A stretch of DNA of 49,941 nt from an uncultured Actinomycetes bacterium. GTDB taxonomy: Bacteria; Actinomycetota; Acidimicrobiia; Acidimicrobiales; RAAP-2. Of this stretch, positions 1 to 42,439 are shown in pieces. How positions within the stretch are numbered: position 1 is the stretch's first letter; every line of letters starts with the position of its first letter. A program made the position numbers and the translations under genes. The notes under the pieces are model-generated. The model was not told where the DNA came from and ran no database searches. It saw nothing but the letters and a program-made list of their open reading frames with translations. Where the stretch lies: contig CAIQWC010000030.1 of the NCBI GenBank assembly GCA_903875425.1, positions 1-49,941 of the forward strand, written 5' to 3'.

Positions 1-34
1 CCATCTCTTGGGCTATTTGAGCGCGAGCTTCCAT
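1..34 (-). CDS. N-terminal fragment of an unidentified protein, cut by the window edge
   Basis: On the minus strand an ATG lies two bases beyond the TAA stop of the FAD monooxygenase, and the frame stays open to the window edge (11 codons, beginning MEARAQIAQE). The tight spacing suggests a third gene of the same operon, translationally coupled to the monooxygenase. Nothing can be said about its function from 11 residues, and the frame could also be open by chance. Confidence 0.35.
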   Translation of the reverse strand, partial: MEARAQIAQEM

Positions 35-36
35 GA

Positions 37-1221
37 TTATGGCTTCGGTGGATAGAGGCTGAAGGTAACTTCAGGGTCAAATGGTGAGTGGTTGCCGTCA
101 ACTTGGGATCGGCGTCCTACGCGGACGTTACGATCGACGAGCTCCCTACCCAATTTGAGCCGTCCTGGCTCCCAATTTGCCAGCGCTTCGGGAACCGAAT
201 CGGCCTCAAGAAGGGCTTGGGCCAGGAAGTAACTCTCGTCCGCTGCCTTGGCTGTTCCCGCAGCGGCGTGCGATCGTGCCACCCACGCGGAGTCTCCTAA
301 GAGACAAATCCGACCAAAGGCCATTTTCGGTATCTCGCAGTCAACGAGTGCTTGGATGAAGGGCTCTTTGGCGGCACAAACAACTTCAGAGATCAACGCT
401 GGCAGTCGTGCTTTCGAGGAAGCGTGGAGCTCATCGACATGCACTTGGCGAACCTGTCCAGGTTGGATGGAAACGGGACGTCGGATACCAGTGGCATCAG
501 TCATGACGTCGTCAAAGTCATCACCTTCGAGGTAATTGCGGTACCAAACAAAGTTGAGGAGTCGATCCTTAGGCTTCACTGAACCGCTGTGACCTGGGAT
601 CGGGTACACGATGATATGGCTGTTAGCCAAGGTGTAGTAGGTCAACTTGTCAATAATCTTGTCGAAAGTTGCCTCTGAGACATCAGTAGCCGCCGTCAGA
701 CCTCGCCAGCCGACATACCCCGCATAGTGAACCACTACGTCAGGGAGTAGCTCTTTACGCGCCTGAGAATGGACGCCATCGGCCATAACGACGAGGTCAA
801 AGCTTTCGGTTGTCCCATCGGAGAATTGGACGCTGGCATCACTGTCAGTTTGGCTAAAACCGATCATTTCTTTGCCGAGCATGTAGCGCTCAGGGCCGAA
901 GGCCTTCAAAGATTCTTGGTAAACCGTGTTCCAAGACGTGAATCGGTAAGGCTGCTTCTTCTCGTACTTCACCGTATCGTCGCGGTGCAAAAAGTGAACG
1001 AGCTCCGTCTTCACGCTGATGGTATCGAGATCTACCCCAGCACGTTCTCCGAGGAACTTTGAGGTTTCGTCTAAGAAACCGATGCCGGCTCCTCGCTGCT
1101 CGAGAGGGACTGGCGAGCGCTCAAACACCGTGACGTCAAAACCTGCGTCACGGAGCCAGAGCGCAGCGCTCAGTCCACCAATCGAACCGCCAACAATGCC
1201 AATTTTGAGGTTTGCGTCCAT
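37..1221 (-). CDS. FAD-dependent monooxygenase (aromatic-ring hydroxylase type)
   Basis: This is a 394-residue single-component flavoprotein hydroxylase, a family that uses FAD, NAD(P)H and O2 to hydroxylate aromatic or heteroaromatic substrates. Seen in the sequence: the dinucleotide-binding motif GGSIGG at residues 11-16, the ribose-binding Glu34 ending the second strand, and the second FAD motif GDSAW at about 309 followed by AAAGTAKAADES. The last motif and a central LNFVWYRN recall 2,6-dihydroxypyridine 3-monooxygenase and salicylate-hydroxylase relatives; the substrate is not predictable. I chose the ATG at 1221 because the flavin fold begins a few residues later. A longer frame to 1284 would overlap the upstream gene. 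It lies 23 bases downstream of the PPOX-fold gene and is probably cotranscribed with it. Confidence 0.88.
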   Translation of the reverse strand: MDANLKIGIVGGSIGGLSAALWLRDAGFDVTVFERSPVPLEQRGAGIGFLDETSKFLGERAGVDLDTISVKTELVHFLHRDDTVKYEKKQPYRFTSWNTVYQESLKAFGPERYMLGKEMIGFSQTDSDASVQFSDGTTESFDLVVMADGVHSQARKELLPDVVVHYAGYVGWRGLTAATDVSEATFDKIIDKLTYYTLANSHIIVYPIPGHSGSVKPKDRLLNFVWYRNYLEGDDFDDVMTDATGIRRPVSIQPGQVRQVHVDELHASSKARLPALISEVVCAAKEPFIQALVDCEIPKMAFGRICLLGDSAWVARSHAAAGTAKAADESYFLAQALLEADSVPEALANWEPGRLKLGRELVDRNVRVGRRSQVDGNHSPFDPEVTFSLYPPKP

Positions 1222-33479: not shown

Positions 33480-35071
33480 TGAGTTTGCTCGCAACTGCGA
33501 CTATTAAAGTGCCTTCCATTGACTATCTCGCCATCTTGCCGGTACTCATCCTCATCGGCGGAGCCGTGATCATAATGACCGTTACCGCGTTGATTCCCGG
33601 TGGTCTCCGCCGTGATGCGACGACAGGTCTCAGCGTCACGACAGCCATTGCCGCGTTACTTTCAGCGCTCGTCGAGTGGCACCGTGTCATGGTGCAAGGT
33701 GCCACGACTACCATCGCGCACGCCATTGTCATGGACGGCTTCTCGACCTTCATGGCCATCGCCGTTACGAGTTGCGTCGTCATTGCATCGCTTATCGGTC
33801 ACGACTATCTCAAGCGCGAAGATATCTCAAGCGCGGAGTACCACATCTTGGCGCTGATCTCAGCAGCCGGAGCGGTTCTCATGGCCTCAGCGAATGATCT
33901 CGTTGTCATCTTCTTGGCCCTCGAGATCCTTTCCATAGCCCTCTACGTACTGGTCGCGTTTAACCCGCGTCGTGGAGAATCGGGTGAAGCGGCATTGAAG
34001 TACTTCATTTTGGGCGGCTTCTCCTCGGCCGTCTTCGTCTACGGGATCGCGTTGACCTATGGCGCTACGGGTACGACGAACCTCACTCAGATCATTGACT
34101 TCCTCGGACAAAACACGCCACAGCACGCTGGCTTGCTCTACGCCGGCATGGGATTGTTGATTGTTGGTTTTGCCTTCAAGGTCGCAGCCGTTCCCTTCCA
34201 CTTCTGGACGCCTGACGTCTACCAAGGTGCTCCGTCTCCGGTAACGGGTTTCATGGCCGCCGTGGCCAAGATCGGTGGCTTTGCCGCCCTTTTGCGGGTG
34301 CTCCTCACTGCTTTTGGCACGCAAGCGGCGACGTGGCAGCCCATCATCTATGCGGTAGCGGTGGCGTCGCTCATCGTCGGAGCCTTGCTGATGGTTGTGC
34401 AGCGCGACGTAAAACGCATGATGGCCTACTCATCGATTAATCACGCAGGATTCATTTTGCTTGGTGTTGAAGCGGCCACCACGAAGGGTGTTGAAGCTGC
34501 GCTGTACTACCTGTTCGTCTACGCCGTCATGACGCTCGGTGTCTTTGGCGTGATTAGCGTGGTCGCGGCAAAGGGCGATGAGGACACCACGATTCTTTCC
34601 TATCGCGGATTGCTCCGTCGTAGTCCTTTCTTGGGAGCCTGCTTCGTACTCTTGCTGCTAGCTCAGGCCGGGGCACCGTTCACCACGGGGCTCTTCGCGA
34701 AGTTGGGCGTGCTCTCGGCAGCCGTTTCGGTCGGTAGTTGGCCCTTGGCGCTAGTTGCCATGCTGAGCGCCGTAATCTCTGGCTTCGCTTACTTGCGACT
34801 CACCCTTCTTAGCGTTCGACCCCTTGGAGCGCCCAGCGATGTTGACGAGCTCGACGTGGACACGGCCGTATCGCAACCCATGCACCATCTCGGCGCAACC
34901 CTGCTGCTCGAGGAGGAAGCGCCGGTCGACGTAGCGGTACGGCACGTACCAAGCTCTCCCGTAGCCCTCTCGGGCGTGGCCATTGCGACGGCCTTCACGG
35001 TGGTGTTCGGGCTTATCCCTGGACCCATTCTTTCCCTGGCTCATGCAGCCACCCTCTCCTTGCTCGGCTAG
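33476..35071 (+). CDS. nuoN: NADH-quinone oxidoreductase subunit N
   Basis: A 531-residue antiporter-like subunit. Seen: the membrane Glu in FLALEILSIALYVLVAF, KVAAVPFHFWTPDVYQGAPSPVTGF and KRMMAYSSINHAGF. A hydrophilic loop of about 50 residues lies before the last helix. It starts at GTG 33476 or ATG 33479, both overlapping the nuoM stop. Last of the fourteen nuo genes; the ATP-grasp gene begins on the final base of its stop codon. Confidence 0.96.
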   Translation: MMSLLATATIKVPSIDYLAILPVLILIGGAVIIMTVTALIPGGLRRDATTGLSVTTAIAALLSALVEWHRVMVQGATTTIAHAIVMDGFSTFMAIAVTSCVVIASLIGHDYLKREDISSAEYHILALISAAGAVLMASANDLVVIFLALEILSIALYVLVAFNPRRGESGEAALKYFILGGFSSAVFVYGIALTYGATGTTNLTQIIDFLGQNTPQHAGLLYAGMGLLIVGFAFKVAAVPFHFWTPDVYQGAPSPVTGFMAAVAKIGGFAALLRVLLTAFGTQAATWQPIIYAVAVASLIVGALLMVVQRDVKRMMAYSSINHAGFILLGVEAATTKGVEAALYYLFVYAVMTLGVFGVISVVAAKGDEDTTILSYRGLLRRSPFLGACFVLLLLAQAGAPFTTGLFAKLGVLSAAVSVGSWPLALVAMLSAVISGFAYLRLTLLSVRPLGAPSDVDELDVDTAVSQPMHHLGATLLLEEEAPVDVAVRHVPSSPVALSGVAIATAFTVVFGLIPGPILSLAHAATLSLLG

Positions 35072-35952
35072 TGGCTCATCTCGCCATCGCGACCTGCTCG
35101 GAGTTCCCTAAGGGGGATGGTGACGTTGCGTTGCTCGCTCACGTGGCCGAGGCGCGGGGAATCGAGATTACGACGGCCGATTGGCGGGATCCTTCGGTTA
35201 GCTGGACCGAATTTGATGCCGTTCTCGTTCGCAACACGTGGGACTACACCAGCCACCTTGACGAGTTCTTGGCGTGGTCAGCGGCAATTCCCACCCTGTT
35301 CAATCCCGCATCGGTGATTGCATGGAATACCGATAAGCGCTACCTCGATGATCTCGCTGCGATAGGTATTCCTACGATTACGACGACCTACCTTGTTGAC
35401 CATGCTCAAGCAGCAAGTTTCAGCTGGGAACAACAAGGGCCCTTCGTCATGAAGCCCACGGTCGGCGCGGGCTCCATGGGCGCTGAACGTTTTGAGGAAT
35501 CGGAGACTCTGCGCGCTCGCAGCCATGCCCATTCACTCATTGATACGGGCAAGGTCGTTATGGTCCAGCCCTACCTACCCCTCGTCGAAACTGAGCAGGA
35601 GACGGCAGTCATTCTCTTTGATGGCTGGCCGAGCCATGCCATCGCCAAGGGTCCTATGTTGCTGGTCGATTCCTTGGATCGTTCGCGCCTCTTTCGCGAT
35701 GAGCAAATCAGTGCCCGTATGGCGAGTGATGCGTATCGCATGCTGGCGATCCAAACCCATGCGGCGGTCGTAGCGCACTTGAACCTATCTGGTCCGCTTC
35801 TCTACGCTCGCGTCGACATGGTGCCCACACAAACAGGACCAGCCGTCATCGAGTGTGAAGTGACGGAGCCGAGTCTGTTTTTAGGGTTTGATCCCGGTGC
35901 CGTTGAGAGCTTCGTCGAGGCCCTCAGTCGTCGTCTGCGTTCACTGCGGTAA
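35071..35952 (+). CDS. ATP-grasp domain protein (carboxylate-amine ligase-like)
   Basis: A 293-residue ATP-grasp-fold protein related to glutathione-synthetase/RimK-like and O-ureido-serine cyclo-ligase families, which join a carboxylate to an amine or thiol using ATP. Seen: VRNTWDYTSHLDEFLAW, WNTDKRYLDDLA, the ATP-binding FVMKPTVGAGSMGAERF with its Gly-rich loop, VMVQPYLPLVE, and C-terminal metal-ligand acidic residues (RVDMV, ECEVTEPSLF). The substrate is unknown. The GTG start shares a base with the nuoN stop, so it is transcribed with complex I. Its 3' end overlaps the next, convergent gene by 29 bases. Confidence 0.82.
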   Translation: MAHLAIATCSEFPKGDGDVALLAHVAEARGIEITTADWRDPSVSWTEFDAVLVRNTWDYTSHLDEFLAWSAAIPTLFNPASVIAWNTDKRYLDDLAAIGIPTITTTYLVDHAQAASFSWEQQGPFVMKPTVGAGSMGAERFEESETLRARSHAHSLIDTGKVVMVQPYLPLVETEQETAVILFDGWPSHAIAKGPMLLVDSLDRSRLFRDEQISARMASDAYRMLAIQTHAAVVAHLNLSGPLLYARVDMVPTQTGPAVIECEVTEPSLFLGFDPGAVESFVEALSRRLRSLR

Positions 35953-38944
35953 CGCTGAGGAGCTCCGGCGCTACCACCACTGTCGGTCTGCTCGACGGGT
36001 CGGATCCAAAGAGCCGGCCGACGATGGGAATCTCGGTCAGTGACTCGGCTCGAAGCGCCGCTGCGGCGGTAGGCAACAATTGTTCGGGGGCGGCGTAGAC
36101 CAGGTAGCGGGCTTGCCAAGCAGGATGGTATTTCTCATTGAAGCGCCATAGGGTCTCAATGGGCAAGATGGAGCTCATTCGTTTGAGGCCCCAGCGTTCA
36201 ATTTTGGTGGCGATGCCCTCGCCCCGCTCTCCATCGAGGATGGAGCGGAAGGCCGCAAAGTTCAAGCTGACGCCGGTGGCACCGTTCGCCTTGAGGTATT
36301 CAAAGGTCTGACAGAGGCAGAAGTCGAGGAGGCCATTGGGATGCTCACCGGGGTCACGGCGCATGATGTCGAGGCTGTAGCCGTTAATGGCGGGTGAAGG
36401 GACAAAGTGACACATTGCCACGGGGTGCCCTTGGGGGTCGCAGACCACCGTGAGCAGTAATCCTGTGTCTCGAGGGTTGAAGAGTCGTCCCAACATCATG
36501 GAGAAGCCACGTTCTTGCTCTCCTCGGCGCAGCATTTCCATAAGTTCAACGAGTGCGGGTATGCGGCTTGGATCGATCTTCGAAGGATCGAGAAACTCAG
36601 CGGTGTAGCCATTACGAGCAACGCGAGTATTGGCTTGACGCAATCCCTTCATTGCTCCGCCGTCAAGAGAAAAGTTCTGGACGTTAACCACCGCTTCATC
36701 GCCGAGGTAGATGTGTCGCATACCGGTGTTGGCGTAGATCTCGAGCCAATCTTCGGCGGCTCCCATGACGGCTGGAGTCCATGCATGCGAATTACAGAAA
36801 CTTTTAAAGGCCGCCCACGCTTGCTCTCGTTCCTCGGCGGGTCCAATAGGGTCAGGTGACACTAAGGCGATACCACCGAAGACGGCGTAGGCCACCAGGG
36901 TGTCACCAAAGAAAAAGAACTGCTTATCATCTCGAAGCGCGAAGTAATCCAAGGTGCCGCGCCCATGGCGCTCCACGATGTCACGGGACCGACTTTCGGT
37001 GAGCCGACGCGCGCTTCCTTGGTGCTCAGAGAGACGGCGGTCGACGACGGGTCTCGTAAGGAGGTAGAGCGTGGCAACGATGAGGCTGATACCGACGGTC
37101 AGCATGGTGGGATAAATAAAGTCATCAATCTTGTCGGGCAGTGCGATGGTTGCGAGTCCCACCATTCGTTCTGCGACCGCTACGAATACCGTGGGCCACG
37201 CAGGCAAGGTATGAGGGTGTTGTAAGTCAGAGATCTCGACGCCTGAAAAGCCGGCCAAGATCGCCATGACGGCAATCGCTAACAGAGCAGGCACGGTGGT
37301 TCTCAGGCTACGGCGATCGGTTGATGCGCTAAAACAGCGACGCTCGATCAAGAGCAGGACCAACACTGCGATAGAGACACCAGCCGCTCCAACCGACCCA
37401 GCGTGAATGAGGTGGAACAAAATAGACGACGATAATAAGACGACCGCCGCTAGCCAACTGCGCTGTTGGCCTCGCAAGATCCCCCTCGAGAGCATGACGA
37501 GGCAGATGCCAATGATGGCAACGGCGGCGGCAGCAGTCTGTGACGCCCCTAAGGGCAGGTAGGTGAGAATGGTGTGCAGACGGCTTCTGAGTGGCGGAGC
37601 AATGGCCACGAGTACATCGAGAAGACCGGTAAGGAGCAAGGCCGCCGCCGCGAAACGCTTTACCCTTCGGTTCTTACGGAACGCGGCTGTTTGATCAGAA
37701 GCCGGTGGCCAGGAGTTTCCCGTAGGCCATGACGCAATGAGTTGGGGTGAGGCCTGGTGGGGAGGTATCGCTGCTGCAGTATCGCCAGCGACGAGTCGCT
37801 CAAGGAAACTTGCTTCGCTTCGTTCACGGTCTTGGGCGATTAGGCGAACGTGGAGATCGGCGCCTGACTCCACTTCCAAGAAGGCCAGCTGGTGGTGGAC
37901 GACAAATACTGGTGGTAGCCCCAACCTTCCGTAGTGTTTGCGCACCACCGTGCCAGAGCTCCCTAGCTTGGCGAAGAAGCCAACGTCGAGGCGGAGCAAG
38001 GACGCTGAACGGTTCCCAGCACCGACGGCACCGGTGCCACCAGACGCGAGGTAGCGGCGAACGTGGTCTAGGGCATCTTGATCGGCCACGATATCGCCCG
38101 CGGCCCCCTCGGTGCCGATCCCCGACCCGAGGGAGCTGGTATCGCGTTGGTGAAGCGCGTGACGGAAGGCTCGTCTCGAGAGAAAGGTAGCGATGAGACC
38201 GACGATGGTCTCAACGACGATGACGGCGACAATGGCGACCAGGATTCGCTGTCCCCAATTTGCACTTGTAATTTCGCTAATTATTTTTTTACGGTTGCCC
38301 TTAGCGTGGGTGGCGATGCGAGTTAAGTTGTTATTTACTAGGGCTGTCGCCGATACGAGTGCCACGATGAGGGCTAGCACCGGGGGAATCCAAACTAATT
38401 TCGAGAGTCTGCGATAGAGCGTTCGCGACTGGGTGAATGCGAGTAGCTCGCTTGGATCTTCGAGGAGTTCGGCACCGTCTAGCCACGATGCGCCAGTAAT
38501 TAATTGATCGCCGATACGGCTCACTCCTGCTTCGCTACTAATCATGATCCGCCGTTCACCAACGGCGGTGGTGCAGATCAATTCAAGCGAGTCAACTACG
38601 TCGATGGAGAAGTCGGCCATGCGATCGGTGAAGAGCGGCGTCGCGAGCGCAGGATCGAGAACGAACAAGACGGACCGGTGCGCTTGGTGAGCAAATGCCC
38701 GAATACGCTCAAAGAGGTCACGGTGTCGTTCGAGCGCAGTCTCAAAGGAGCGGTCGCGAAAGCAGGCACCGGTGAGGATAAGAGCACCAGGGCCTTCCCA
38801 TTGGGAGAGTTCTCGAGCAATCACCGCGGTCGAGGGTGTGGCCGCTGGGTGGTCAGTGACACTGAGTTCGAGAGAGCCGACAATCATTGCTCGACTTCCC
38901 AAGGGTACGGCAAGGTGGTGCTGGGTGGGGCTGGTCAGGACCAT
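35924..38944 (-). CDS. large membrane protein with MprF/LysX-like (DUF2156) C-terminus
   Basis: A 1006-residue protein in three parts. Residues 1 to about 170 resemble a calcineurin-like phosphoesterase in pattern, but the metal-binding positions are replaced. The middle has about eight membrane helices, with a soluble segment after the first two. The last 320 residues (from about GRGTLDYFALRDDKQFFF) are the DUF2156/GNAT-like domain of phosphatidylglycerol lysyltransferases, with GEQERGFSM and NGLLDFCLCQTFEYLKANG. MprF-type proteins transfer an amino acid from tRNA to membrane lipids and lower the surface negative charge. No lysyl-tRNA synthetase domain is fused, unlike mycobacterial LysX. 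ATG with weak AAAGG; divergent from the HAD gene. Confidence 0.82.
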   Translation of the reverse strand: MVLTSPTQHHLAVPLGSRAMIVGSLELSVTDHPAATPSTAVIARELSQWEGPGALILTGACFRDRSFETALERHRDLFERIRAFAHQAHRSVLFVLDPALATPLFTDRMADFSIDVVDSLELICTTAVGERRIMISSEAGVSRIGDQLITGASWLDGAELLEDPSELLAFTQSRTLYRRLSKLVWIPPVLALIVALVSATALVNNNLTRIATHAKGNRKKIISEITSANWGQRILVAIVAVIVVETIVGLIATFLSRRAFRHALHQRDTSSLGSGIGTEGAAGDIVADQDALDHVRRYLASGGTGAVGAGNRSASLLRLDVGFFAKLGSSGTVVRKHYGRLGLPPVFVVHHQLAFLEVESGADLHVRLIAQDRERSEASFLERLVAGDTAAAIPPHQASPQLIASWPTGNSWPPASDQTAAFRKNRRVKRFAAAALLLTGLLDVLVAIAPPLRSRLHTILTYLPLGASQTAAAAVAIIGICLVMLSRGILRGQQRSWLAAVVLLSSSILFHLIHAGSVGAAGVSIAVLVLLLIERRCFSASTDRRSLRTTVPALLAIAVMAILAGFSGVEISDLQHPHTLPAWPTVFVAVAERMVGLATIALPDKIDDFIYPTMLTVGISLIVATLYLLTRPVVDRRLSEHQGSARRLTESRSRDIVERHGRGTLDYFALRDDKQFFFFGDTLVAYAVFGGIALVSPDPIGPAEEREQAWAAFKSFCNSHAWTPAVMGAAEDWLEIYANTGMRHIYLGDEAVVNVQNFSLDGGAMKGLRQANTRVARNGYTAEFLDPSKIDPSRIPALVELMEMLRRGEQERGFSMMLGRLFNPRDTGLLLTVVCDPQGHPVAMCHFVPSPAINGYSLDIMRRDPGEHPNGLLDFCLCQTFEYLKANGATGVSLNFAAFRSILDGERGEGIATKIERWGLKRMSSILPIETLWRFNEKYHPAWQARYLVYAAPEQLLPTAAAALRAESLTEIPIVGRLFGSDPSSRPTVVVAPELLSVTAVNADDD

Positions 38945-39009: not shown

Positions 39010-39504
39010 ATGAATGAGAGCAACTTGACTGGCGCGTGGCGATATCGCACCCCAAATACCCATCCATCGAAGGCCGTCGTCTTTGATATTGACGGGGTAC
39101 TTTCTGACGCGGCGGGTCGACAGCACTTTCTCGATTCGGGGCAACGCGACTGGATCGCCTTCTTTGAGGCCTGTGGATCTGATCCGGTCATCGAAGAGAT
39201 TTCCACCTTGATTTCCTTACTCAGCAGCGATCTCCAGGTCATCTTGTTGACGGGTCGCCCTCAACGAGTACAAGCCCAGACACTTGCCTGGCTCGAGCGC
39301 TATGGCCTTCGGTGGGACCTTTTGGTGATGCGTAACTGGACCGATTACGACCAGGTCACTGACTTCAAGCGTGGCGTGGTGATGGATCTCCGCGATAGAG
39401 GCTTTGATCTACTACTGGCCTTCGAGGATGATCCCTCAAATCATCAGATGTACGTTGACGAGGGAATACCATGCGTCTACGTCCACTCTGGATACTACGA
39501 CTGA
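39010..39504 (+). CDS. HAD-superfamily protein, polynucleotide-kinase 3'-phosphatase-like
   Basis: A 164-residue HAD-fold protein. Motif I is FDIDGVLSD with nucleophile Asp26 and acid/base Asp28, motif II is LLTGRP, and motif IV is the acidic FEDDPSNHQMY pair. The arrangement and absence of a cap domain resemble the phosphatase half of T4-type polynucleotide kinase and related small HAD proteins. The natural substrate is unknown. It sits alone between two minus-strand genes; its last ten bases overlap the end of the lnt gene tail to tail. Confidence 0.82.
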   Translation: MNESNLTGAWRYRTPNTHPSKAVVFDIDGVLSDAAGRQHFLDSGQRDWIAFFEACGSDPVIEEISTLISLLSSDLQVILLTGRPQRVQAQTLAWLERYGLRWDLLVMRNWTDYDQVTDFKRGVVMDLRDRGFDLLLAFEDDPSNHQMYVDEGIPCVYVHSGYYD

Positions 39505-41003
39505 GGCCTCATTCGAGATAGAGCTCTGGTCCAGCCGAGGCCAAGCGCTAGTGCTGCCAAGATCAAGACGAGAAGATCACCGGTATCGTCGTAGATCGTT
39601 GAACCCTGACGCAGATCTATGGTCGCACTGACGACCTGGTGGGCACTCAAGGCACTCCTTACGACGACGTGACCGTTAGCGCTGATGATGGCGCTATAGC
39701 CAGTGGGGGACGCTTGAATGAGGTCTCGCCCGCACGAGAGAGCCTGGAGTCTCGCGGCAGCTAATTCCACGCTGGGCATTTGGGTTCCTGGATATGAGGT
39801 GGTATTGGTTGGTACGACGAGGACTTGGGCACCATGGTGAATCGCAGGTAGTGAGCGCGAAGCGAAGAATACTTCATAGGAGATCAACACCCCGAGTCGG
39901 TAGTGCCCCAGGCGCATAACTCCCGACCCGCTACCGGCAATGGCATCGCGAGGAACCGCCGAGAAATTTGCGAGGTGGGAAAGAAATTTCCGAAACGGTA
40001 CGTACTCGCCAAAGGGCACACGGTGCACCTTTTCAACTCGACTCGCCACTGAACCCGAAGGGTTGATGCCGACGACGTAGTTTAAAAAACGTGTAGAGCC
40101 CACAGGCTCGGTAACGCCGGCCACGAGAAAGGTGTGGTGCGCCACGGCTTGACCTTTGAGGTCTGCAAGTTGCCAAGAACCGACCAAGGGGCGGTCAAGA
40201 CCAACAACGTCTTCAGGTAAAACGGTGAGCTGTGTTCCATCGGGGAGCGATGTAAGCGCGCTGATGTGGGCTGCAGTGACGCCAGCGGGATCCGTTTGTT
40301 GAGCCGAGGTACCCCGTGGGCCTCCGCCTTGCACCGCGGCTACTCGAAGGGTGCCAACGACGGCACCGCCGGGGGAGCTCGCCAAGCCCAGAAGGATGAG
40401 CATGGTCACGAACACAACCATGGCACCGCCTAGAACGCTTCGCCGCGCCGCACCCATGTCACCTTGGCGTCGTGTTGCGGCGGCAGAGAGGAGGTGACGG
40501 AGCCCGGCTCCGGCGATCACTAACGCGGCCATCACGCCAAGGCTGCCCCCAAGTCTGGCGATGGCAGCGAGCGGTCCGTTGACCTGACCAAGGGCTAATC
40601 CTCCAATAGGAAGGCCGCCAAAGGGCCAGATACTGCGCAGCCATTCAAAGAGCACCAAGGCGCCAAGAGCGCTCAAGCTTCGGCCTCGTCTTGGCGTAAT
40701 AGCAAGACAGGCGAAGGCGAGGAAGAGCGCTTCGAGGATCATGAGGGCGATGGCCCCGAGAAGACTGAAATGCTGTGCCCACCACAAGCCCGGAATGAAT
40801 TGTCCAAGACCAAAGGCCAAGCCAATGGTGAATCGCCAACCTCGGGATTCGTCTTCTAAGACGACCAGCAAAATAGCAATACCGAGGATGCCAAGCGGCC
40901 AAAGGCCAACGGGCGGCAGTGACGCAGCAGCGATGACTCCTGCGCCAAGACCAAGGCCGATAGCCGTGGCGGAGCGCGCGCCGCTGTGGACGGACTCGCT
41001 CAA
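39495..41003 (-). CDS. lnt: apolipoprotein N-acyltransferase with Ser in place of the catalytic Cys
   Basis: A 502-residue membrane protein that in the Lnt family acylates the N-terminal Cys of lipoproteins. About seven N-terminal helices (ASLPPVGLWPLG and onward) are followed by a nitrilase/CN-hydrolase domain. The triad positions, in this numbering, are Glu264 (LPEDVVG), Lys325 (EKVHRVPFGEY) and position 375, which is Ser (VLISYEVFF) where E. coli Lnt has Cys. Activity is therefore uncertain. The TTG at 41003 overlaps the hemY stop (TTGA); an in-frame GTG at 41060 would add 19 residues inside hemY. Lipoproteins with lipoboxes occur in the window, so a substrate pool exists. Confidence 0.85.
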   Translation of the reverse strand: MSESVHSGARSATAIGLGLGAGVIAAASLPPVGLWPLGILGIAILLVVLEDESRGWRFTIGLAFGLGQFIPGLWWAQHFSLLGAIALMILEALFLAFACLAITPRRGRSLSALGALVLFEWLRSIWPFGGLPIGGLALGQVNGPLAAIARLGGSLGVMAALVIAGAGLRHLLSAAATRRQGDMGAARRSVLGGAMVVFVTMLILLGLASSPGGAVVGTLRVAAVQGGGPRGTSAQQTDPAGVTAAHISALTSLPDGTQLTVLPEDVVGLDRPLVGSWQLADLKGQAVAHHTFLVAGVTEPVGSTRFLNYVVGINPSGSVASRVEKVHRVPFGEYVPFRKFLSHLANFSAVPRDAIAGSGSGVMRLGHYRLGVLISYEVFFASRSLPAIHHGAQVLVVPTNTTSYPGTQMPSVELAAARLQALSCGRDLIQASPTGYSAIISANGHVVVRSALSAHQVVSATIDLRQGSTIYDDTGDLLVLILAALALGLGWTRALSRMRPQS

Positions 41004-42439
41004 ACCTCGGTACTTTCCCTGATAGCGATCGCTGCGGCGCGTCGGCCCGAGGCGATGCACGCTGGTACGCCAACACCTTCGAGGTAGGAACCCGCAAGGG
41101 CGATATCGCGATGGCGCGCGACGGCATTGGCAATGTTGTCGATCTTGGCTTGGTGGTTAACGCCATACTGCGGCAAAGCCTTACTCCATCTCGTAACGCT
41201 GGCGGCAAAGGGCGCTTCGGTGGCGCCAAACACAATGGTGAGCTCTTCACGAACCATCGCGATGATCTCGTCATCAGTCATGTGGGTAAAGCGCTCATCG
41301 TCGATACGACCAATTGATGCGCGGATCCACCGAGACCCAGGTTGTAGGAGCAGCGGCCACTTTCTATCGAGAAAGGTAACGGCCGTGGTGAGAAAGCGTT
41401 GTCCCTTCCTAGGGCCTCGAGGGATGGCCGATGCGGGAGGAATGAGGACGCCTGTTCCGCATTCAGGCAGGGTGATGCCATGGTCCGGGAAACACAGTGT
41501 GATGGTCGCGACGCTTGCGTAGCTAATTGCGGCGAGTTGCTCAGCGAGTTCAGAATCAAAGGGAGCACACAAGGCCGCGGCCTCGGTAGCTGGCGTCGCG
41601 ACAATGACCCAATCTGCTCGATAGGTCGAATGCTGCGTATCAACCATCCACGCCGGATCGCTTCCGGCTTGGCGGTGAAGACCGGTTACGTGCGTATCGA
41701 CAATGCACGCTACGCCCAGCGAATCGAGGGAAGCAGTGAGTAGTTCGATGAGTCGATACATGCCGCCTTCGACGCTAAGAAAGGCGGGTGGTACTTGTGT
41801 CTCCGGGGTTGGCGCGAGTTCGCGCAGGGCTTTCATCAAACCTCCGGGCTTTTGGGCAGCTGCGAGAAGCGAAGGCATGAGTGCCTGAGCGCTGAGATCA
41901 CTCACGCGCCCAGCCACGATGCCGCCAAGCATCGGATCGACCAGACTATTGACGACCTCAAGGCCGAGCTTGCGTTCCACGAGTGATCCAATGGCTCGGT
42001 CCGGCAGATGACCGCGGCCAACGGAGCGTGGAGCGACAAGGTCGAGGAGTGCCCGCAAGAGTCCCCGTTTCGATATCGTTTTCGATTGCGCCAAGGACCA
42101 CCAGCGGGTAGGAATACCAAGCTGAAGGTCCTTGGGTAAATTACGCAACGCACCTCGAACAAAGACGCTGGCACCGGAGGCGGCAATCGGCATGGTCTTG
42201 TCCCCATGGCCGAGTTCGTTGAGGAGTGCCATTAACTCTGGACGTCGACCAAGGGTTCCGTCTGCAGAGCTGTCAACGGTTCTGCCATGGAGGGTAACCG
42301 AATCGAGTTTCCCTCCCAGCCGAGACGAGGCTTCGATCACGCGAACATTGCATCGATCTCCAGAAGTAGCGGCGATGTGATGCGCCGCGGCGAGGCCAGC
42401 AATGCCTCCACCGATGACGATCACATCGCGCTTGGTCAC
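41000..42439 (-). CDS. hemY: coproporphyrinogen/protoporphyrinogen oxidase (HemY/CgoX type)
   Basis: A 479-residue FAD enzyme that removes six electrons from the porphyrinogen ring. The dinucleotide-binding GGGIAGLAAAHH (10-21), the second strand Glu in VIEASSRLGGK, and the family segment LVDPMLGGIVAGRVSDLSA are present. In actinobacteria this enzyme usually oxidises coproporphyrinogen III in the coproporphyrin branch, which is inference here. The GTG start overlaps the hemH stop, and its own stop overlaps the lnt start. It is part of hemE-hemH-hemY-lnt. Confidence 0.93.
   Translation of the reverse strand: MTKRDVIVIGGGIAGLAAAHHIAATSGDRCNVRVIEASSRLGGKLDSVTLHGRTVDSSADGTLGRRPELMALLNELGHGDKTMPIAASGASVFVRGALRNLPKDLQLGIPTRWWSLAQSKTISKRGLLRALLDLVAPRSVGRGHLPDRAIGSLVERKLGLEVVNSLVDPMLGGIVAGRVSDLSAQALMPSLLAAAQKPGGLMKALRELAPTPETQVPPAFLSVEGGMYRLIELLTASLDSLGVACIVDTHVTGLHRQAGSDPAWMVDTQHSTYRADWVIVATPATEAAALCAPFDSELAEQLAAISYASVATITLCFPDHGITLPECGTGVLIPPASAIPRGPRKGQRFLTTAVTFLDRKWPLLLQPGSRWIRASIGRIDDERFTHMTDDEIIAMVREELTIVFGATEAPFAASVTRWSKALPQYGVNHQAKIDNIANAVARHRDIALAGSYLEGVGVPACIASGRRAAAIAIRESTEV

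Follow-up and report, generated by a model that had tools for sequence, protein, structure and literature searches.

Among the systems closest to the one described here, MprF is a bifunctional flippase/synthetase (PMC8131360), and LysX and AlaDAGS of other Actinobacteria, in which six membrane helices are followed by a GNAT-like transferase domain, act on diacylglycerol (PMC10580965). LpxH, the UDP-2,3-diacylglucosamine pyrophosphohydrolase, carries a cap between strand 6 and the last helix that binds the acyl chains of its lipid; the residues listed as contacting lipid fall at 125 to 167, flanked by the metal ligands His114 and His195 (PMC6286764; all three sources are cited from excerpts). 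Here we describe a gene in a 49,941-nt stretch of DNA, the window (contig CAIQWC010000030.1 of assembly GCA_903875425.1, positions 1 to 49,941), from an uncultured Actinomycetes bacterium of the Acidimicrobiales (RAAP-2). At 35924-38944 on the minus strand, an open reading frame (ORF) with an ATG start encodes a 1006-aa protein that joins a pseudo-phosphoesterase head, a six-helix membrane part and an aminoacyl-lipid synthase domain. The head comprises about residues 1-415, and its predicted phosphoesterase fold (about 13-390) is interrupted by a two-helix membrane hairpin. Searches of a library of open-licence papers returned none on this architecture.

The C-terminal domain was readily assigned. 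Pfam LPG_synthase_C (PF09924, DUF2156), already named in a preliminary description made from the sequence, covers model positions 2-298 of 298 at E = 1.6e-67, and almost all of the domain can be aligned with synthases of solved structure (PDB 4v34, E = 1.8e-27). Further Pfam matches, to tRNA-synt_2_TM (residues 426-601), DUF6264 and DUF364, were all weak and below cut-off. From these sequence matches, the protein is probably a membrane-bound, tRNA-dependent aminoacyl-lipid synthase, anchored by its six predicted helices, whose C-terminal domain would move an amino acid from aminoacyl-tRNA to a membrane lipid, as is usual for the family. Because LysX and AlaDAGS use diacylglycerol, the acceptor may be either diacylglycerol or phosphatidylglycerol. 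As a side observation, a second LPG_synthase_C protein is encoded elsewhere in the same genome (C16:7624-8400, minus strand; open frame of 348 aa).

The preliminary description called the protein MprF-like, which holds for the synthase and the last membrane part (aligned with PDB 7f47, chain residues 342-841) and fails for the first flippase portion, which is missing and whose place is taken by the pseudo-phosphoesterase. Instead of a full flippase domain ahead of the synthase, we found six helices between head and synthase. The NCBIfam MprF model NF033480 accordingly matches from about residue 421 only (model 322-836 of 841; 226.4 bits versus a cut-off of 600). The NCBIfam LysX model NF002821 covers residues 421-976 (model 11-575 of 1102; 287.8 bits versus a cut-off of 742). 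The order of six helices (assigned in the window by hydropathy only) and transferase is that of LysX and AlaDAGS. The protein differs from LysX in ending at residue 1006 without a C-terminal lysyl-tRNA synthetase (LysRS) domain, which AlaDAGS likewise lacks, and from both in its additional N-terminal pseudo-phosphoesterase of about 415 residues. The six-helix part and synthase are, therefore, closer to the LysX/AlaDAGS type without LysRS than to a full MprF.

For the head, Pfam Metallophos remained without a match in this protein even at E up to 1, a result that would suit an unrelated family whose strand pattern resembles phosphoesterases by chance. Other comparisons speak against such an origin. 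Profile A2, made from three intact heads only (those of loci L101, L102 and L105) with the window protein excluded, matched both halves of the head, once with profile positions 3-91 (E = 3.3e-12, hairpin outside) and once with 180-412 (E = 7.1e-20, hairpin included). Across the window's genome, A2 matches at E 1e-10 or better fell only on this gene (three candidates scored). A phmmer comparison also linked the window protein to L105, a protein without a synthase (E = 1e-11). The window head is, thus, homologous in sequence to proteins with intact motifs, and judged by these comparisons its resemblance to phosphoesterases exceeds chance.

The motifs themselves form a graded series. In the paralogues L101 and L102 and in L105, all motifs are present, including HGNQ or HGHQ and GHTH, and Pfam Metallophos scores above its cut-off; six other relatives scanned gave no match to it. 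Many relatives carry SDLHL, AGDxFE and PGNHD in eroded form at the named places (SDLSL, AGNLF and LPGSDD). In the window, the N half carries GSLEL (motif I, residues 23-27), TGACFR (motif II, 58-63) and LDPAL (motif III, 96-100), exactly as first noted, along with ISSEAG at motif IV. Intermediates such as L116 and L117, with 4/8 and 3/8 of the metal and catalytic positions defined below, and L100, which keeps GHT, count further against an unrelated family, as does the fold search, which returns phosphoesterases. At the level of these tests that origin is already refuted, and we consider it almost certainly wrong.

An AlphaFold2 model of window residues 1-420, built on an alignment of 70 rows that included intact heads, reached a mean predicted local distance difference test (pLDDT) value of 87.6 and a predicted template modeling (pTM) score of 0.85. 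In the Foldseek list for this model, LpxH structures took the first 23 places (best E = 2.7e-5), ahead of Mre11/SbcD and further phosphoesterases. VIA-align also placed LpxH first (Z 15.4, root-mean-square deviation (rmsd) 4.6, 207 aligned residues, model 16..375), ahead of YfcE (Z 13.7) and Vps29 (Z about 12-13). The intact head of L101, modeled by the same procedure (pLDDT 88.2), aligned with LpxH at Z 18.4, rmsd 3.6 and 22% identity over 206 residues, and L101 has a weak, below-cut-off NCBIfam match to UDP-2,3-diacylglucosamine diphosphatase (E = 2.6e-5). As modeled, the window head belongs by fold to the calcineurin-like metallophosphoesterase superfamily, the assignment that the preliminary description had made by pattern, and LpxH is the closest solved fold. 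Sequence searches of the PDB yielded no phosphoesterase at E 0.01 with A2; with another head profile, A1, they gave four receptor chains that matched the membrane part only (E 0.1-0.81) and again no phosphoesterase. The relation to LpxH consequently rests on predicted folds, intact relatives and the one weak NCBIfam match.

The model also redraws the domain borders. Residues 1-170, initially taken as the head, do contain the N half of the phosphoesterase; the C half (about 288-390) lies beyond the hairpin, so that the supposed membrane region, which indeed holds six helices, also includes half of the phosphoesterase. The insert sits between motifs IV and V, and because the lipid contacts of LpxH lie between His114 and His195, the hairpin occupies the cap position. 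In contrast to LpxH, the window head lacks metal ligands and its insert is a transmembrane hairpin. These sequence and model data indicate that the N-terminal 415 or so residues descend from a membrane-anchored LpxH-like metallophosphoesterase in which the hairpin would have replaced the cap that grips acyl chains.

To describe the loss of the metal site, we scored eight positions, equivalent to D8, H10, D41, N79, R80 (His in most of the superfamily), H114, H195 and H197 of LpxH, which comprise its Mn ligands and the Arg80/His neighbor (PMC6286764, excerpt). The window head retains none (0/8): the D-H, GD, GNH, H and GHTH motifs are all absent. At the Asn and Arg places of motif III, it has a gap and L, where proteins scored 8/8 read N-H; these proteins, thus, differ from LpxH itself, which has its specific Arg80 at the position of their His (same excerpt). 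The stretch from motif IV to a conserved SRxxYR motif is 25 residues shorter than in intact L101 (36 versus 61), and most of an HGxxxDPxNxFxDP block is lost. On alignment evidence, the window head can no longer bind two metals in the known way and should not hydrolyze by the two-metal mechanism.

Other uses of the old pocket can be weighed against the same data. In 80 nonredundant eroded heads, the changes are nonrandom: 67 keep the motif I Asp, 61 have Asn in place of the motif II Asp and 61 have Gly in place of the first GHTH His. Such a pattern would fit an allosteric sensor that binds a nucleotide or lipid phosphate uncut and sets synthase activity; the window protein reads S, A and G there and shares only the Gly with the majority, and we regard a sensor as improbable here. 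The conserved Asp and Asn of most eroded relatives might also belong to a head with enzymatic activity of an altered and perhaps metal-free kind. With 0/8 positions, the shortened stretch behind motif IV and the largely missing block in the window protein, we give this explanation very little credence.

A search of genome contigs gave related proteins at 70 loci, and a search of 61 genomes (that of the window plus 60 relatives) gave them in 38; the window protein had one match in its own 1.61-Mb genome. Many of the 70 contig records are labeled Acidimicrobiaceae, and a few are metagenome bins labeled Acidobacteria or Saccharibacteria. Scans with A2 found matches in 37/296 genomes of the class at E 1e-10 and in 39/396 of the phylum at E 1e-15, thresholds at which an intact-head profile undercounts eroded heads. 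Two loci, L062 and L070, carry the gene in two separate frames, and the L098 match contains one in-frame TGA; these are broken copies or assembly errors.

Homologues that keep the metal ligands, which the preliminary description had suggested looking for, exist in both fused and stand-alone form. Across 127 rows, six have all eight positions (L101, L102, L105, L113, L114 and L115, with L113 and L114 close relatives), 114 have eroded heads and seven have a trimmed head, a fragment only or no head. The eroded rows score 4/8 in one case, 3/8 in two, 2/8 in 19, 1/8 in 86 and 0/8 in six; the window protein was the query that retrieved 93 of them, and the intact-head profile retrieved the other 21, so these counts do not give the natural share of eroded heads. 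Ten additional proteins from the phylum scan comprised nine with 8/8 (L142, L144 and L145-L151) and one with 5/8 (L143). In total, seven intact heads are fused to a synthase (L101, L102, L113, L114, L115, L142 and L144, of which the last five were read only as far as the fetched stretch extends). Two genomes encode one eroded and one intact protein each (L075 and L101 in G012; L073 and L102 in G026).

Eight further proteins, L105 of the same order and L145-L151 of the phylum, share the split fold with a hairpin at the same place and are matched by A2 along most of the profile length. They differ from the window protein in having all eight ligand positions and no synthase match in the ORF. This set is biased towards intact heads, as seven are top matches of the intact-head profile and L105 belongs to that profile. 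We consider that these eight proteins may represent a family of lipid phosphoesterases. None of the four tested (L105, L145, L146 and L149) had an NCBIfam match.

Two trees of the synthase domain were computed, neither with a trusted root: a first, quick one of 66 rows, including the very long rows L111 and L104, and a second, more careful one of 62 rows excluding L104, L106, L111 and L128. L105, lacking a synthase, is in neither. The starred groups that contain the window protein in the 62-row tree comprise 2, 4 and 26 rows, and every row in them is eroded. Two changes are needed to account for the five fused rows with intact heads, among which eroded and headless rows (L116, L119 and L110) are interspersed. 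Read from these sequences, the tree would fit more than one loss of the metal site, and a single origin is also possible on a tree without a trusted root.

The eroded heads have nevertheless kept distinct features. SRxxYR lies at the base of the hairpin, and its S173, R174, Y177 and R178 are each kept in 113/114 eroded heads, with all four present in 111/114 (78/80 after removal of near copies) and in all six intact rows. The motif is complete in stand-alone L105 and L145 and partial in the more distant L146-L151. Within the 80 nonredundant eroded heads, 45/420 head positions are conserved at 85% or more, with the window deviating at a few. The window and its congener L002 share a protein identity of 0.52 in the N half versus 0.88 in the synthase. 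Synonymous sites between the window and L002, L073 and L074 are saturated or nearly so; the ratio of nonsynonymous to synonymous substitution rates (dN/dS) was, therefore, taken from 30 non-overlapping pairs of closer relatives, with the window in none. Some pairs (for example, L079-L005) combined a low proportion of synonymous differences (pS) with high protein divergence, which suggests composition bias, and only medians are used for this reason. Median dN/dS was 0.29 in the N half, 0.16 in the hairpin, 0.13 in the C half, 0.15 in the membrane part and 0.07 in the synthase, indicating purifying selection on the head that is weakest in its N half. Both the model and these rates in relatives support the view that the eroded head is still folded and under selection.

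The distribution of positive charge bears on where the head lies. Family averages of lysine plus arginine are 5.9 in the 20 residues ahead of the first of the six helices, 2.1 in the first loop and 2.8 in the second, which are followed by a tight turn, then 3.5 past the fourth helix, 1.2 and 0.6 ahead of the last helix and 3.4 after it. By the positive-inside pattern, the N and C sides of the six-helix part are both cytosolic. With 2.3 in the hairpin loop and 3.8 in the stretch behind the hairpin, both halves of the head are, on sequence grounds, most simply placed in the cytosol, on the same side as the synthase. Our preferred reading, which we hold to be somewhat probable, is that the head acts as a noncatalytic lipid-docking and positioning module on the cytosolic membrane face, where the hairpin and its conserved SRxxYR base may be a binding site for lipid head groups or may keep the synthase seated on the membrane. 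We favor lipid docking since it is the membrane-surface part that stays conserved. The preliminary description had suggested a ligand sensor or a docking domain, both still putative roles.

Several observations weigh against this reading. The N half is the fastest evolving of the five parts (median dN/dS 0.29), and the window copy ranks among the most eroded, with 0/8 found in only six of 114 eroded heads. The head is trimmed in L109, and the ORFs at L107, L108 and L110 have none (a separate head gene was not searched for), which indicates that the synthase can do without it. The same three points would favor a disappearing relic, a passenger without a function of its own that is retained only since its hairpin and chain are required for folding. 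Retention of an eroded head in 114 rows, the near-universal SRxxYR, the low median dN/dS of the C half and the 45 strongly conserved positions speak against a mere passenger, and we judge this explanation unlikely. As for topology, the hairpin loop of the window itself is rich in lysine and arginine (six versus one acidic residue) and fits the proposed arrangement less well than the family average. Regarding the fold, the Foldseek rmsd is near 20 Å for most LpxH rows because the hairpin spreads the loose fold halves. The Foldseek list for the L101 head begins with one LpxH (E = 1.4e-7) and continues with GpdQ, Rv0805 and PptH, making LpxH the nearest fold and not a proven parent. Lastly, intact heads sit in the alignment behind the window model, which is, thus, not independent of them.

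Beyond lipid docking as such, a fuller history can be proposed tentatively: a lipid phosphoesterase that once supplied or trimmed the acceptor lipid for the fused synthase may have lost its chemistry yet persisted, embedded in the membrane, to present lipid at the site that the flippase occupies in MprF. We think this sequence of events possible and would not call it likely.

Table 1 Features of the gene and its neighbors in the window.
Feature	Coordinates	Strand	Evidence or occurrence
Whole gene: pseudo-phosphoesterase head, six-helix membrane part and aminoacyl-lipid synthase	35924..38944	-	ORF, 1006 aa
N half of predicted phosphoesterase fold, residues about 13-140	38525..38908	-	Intact-head profile (E = 3.3e-12), motif table, model
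SRTLYR, residues 173-178, hairpin base	38411..38428	-	Conservation counts
Predicted transmembrane hairpin, helices about 185-203 and 234-252, inside the fold at the LpxH cap place	38189..38392	-	Hydropathy, model, LpxH cap as in PMC6286764 (excerpt)
C half of predicted phosphoesterase fold, residues about 288-390; GHTH position reads GAGNR	37775..38083	-	Intact-head profile (E = 7.1e-20), VIA alignment 16..375
Six predicted transmembrane helices, 431-449, about 467-490, 496-514, 515-533, 551-569 and 610-630	37061..37654	-	Hydropathy; weak Pfam tRNA-synt_2_TM below cut-off
LPG_synthase_C (DUF2156) aminoacyl-tRNA:lipid transferase domain, residues 655-950	36095..36982	-	Pfam (E = 1.6e-67), PDB 4v34 (E = 1.8e-27)
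293-aa protein, convergent, overlaps 3' end of gene by 29 bases	35071-35952	+	Present in 60/70 loci
164-aa HAD phosphatase-like protein, divergent, 65-base gap to gene	39010-39504	+	Pfam HAD_PNKP; 59/70 loci
Apolipoprotein N-acyltransferase-like (Lnt-like) gene	39495-41060	-	Near gene in 1/70 loci (L002, closest relative)

The genes next to this one (Table 1) were counted in the fetched stretches of the 70 loci, some of which are short. In addition to the two flanking genes on the plus strand, NuoN occurs in 54 loci and a HemY-like gene in 62. As these neighbors are shared across most loci, the gene lies in a conserved neighborhood and not on a mobile piece. The Lnt-like gene is probably a local insertion in the window's lineage. 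The 293-aa protein had no Pfam match at E 0.001; by eye only, it has an ATP-grasp/RimK-like look.

The extent of the head, its hairpin, the coexistence of intact and dead copies and the kept SRxxYR go beyond what had been noted for this gene. Aminoacyl-lipid synthases alter both the charge of the surface and the resistance to cationic peptides, with roles shaped by partner domains such as the flippase or a tRNA synthetase. Here, the partner is a phosphoesterase, either intact or dead, and genomes with both forms (G012 and G026) offer a natural comparison for the passage from an enzyme to a noncatalytic, perhaps lipid-binding part. The finding further draws attention to LpxH-like phosphoesterases with a membrane hairpin, for which NCBIfam has no name (4/4 stand-alone proteins tested). 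If the proposed history is true, a lipid-presenting head would be a new way for this family to deliver lipid to the synthase.

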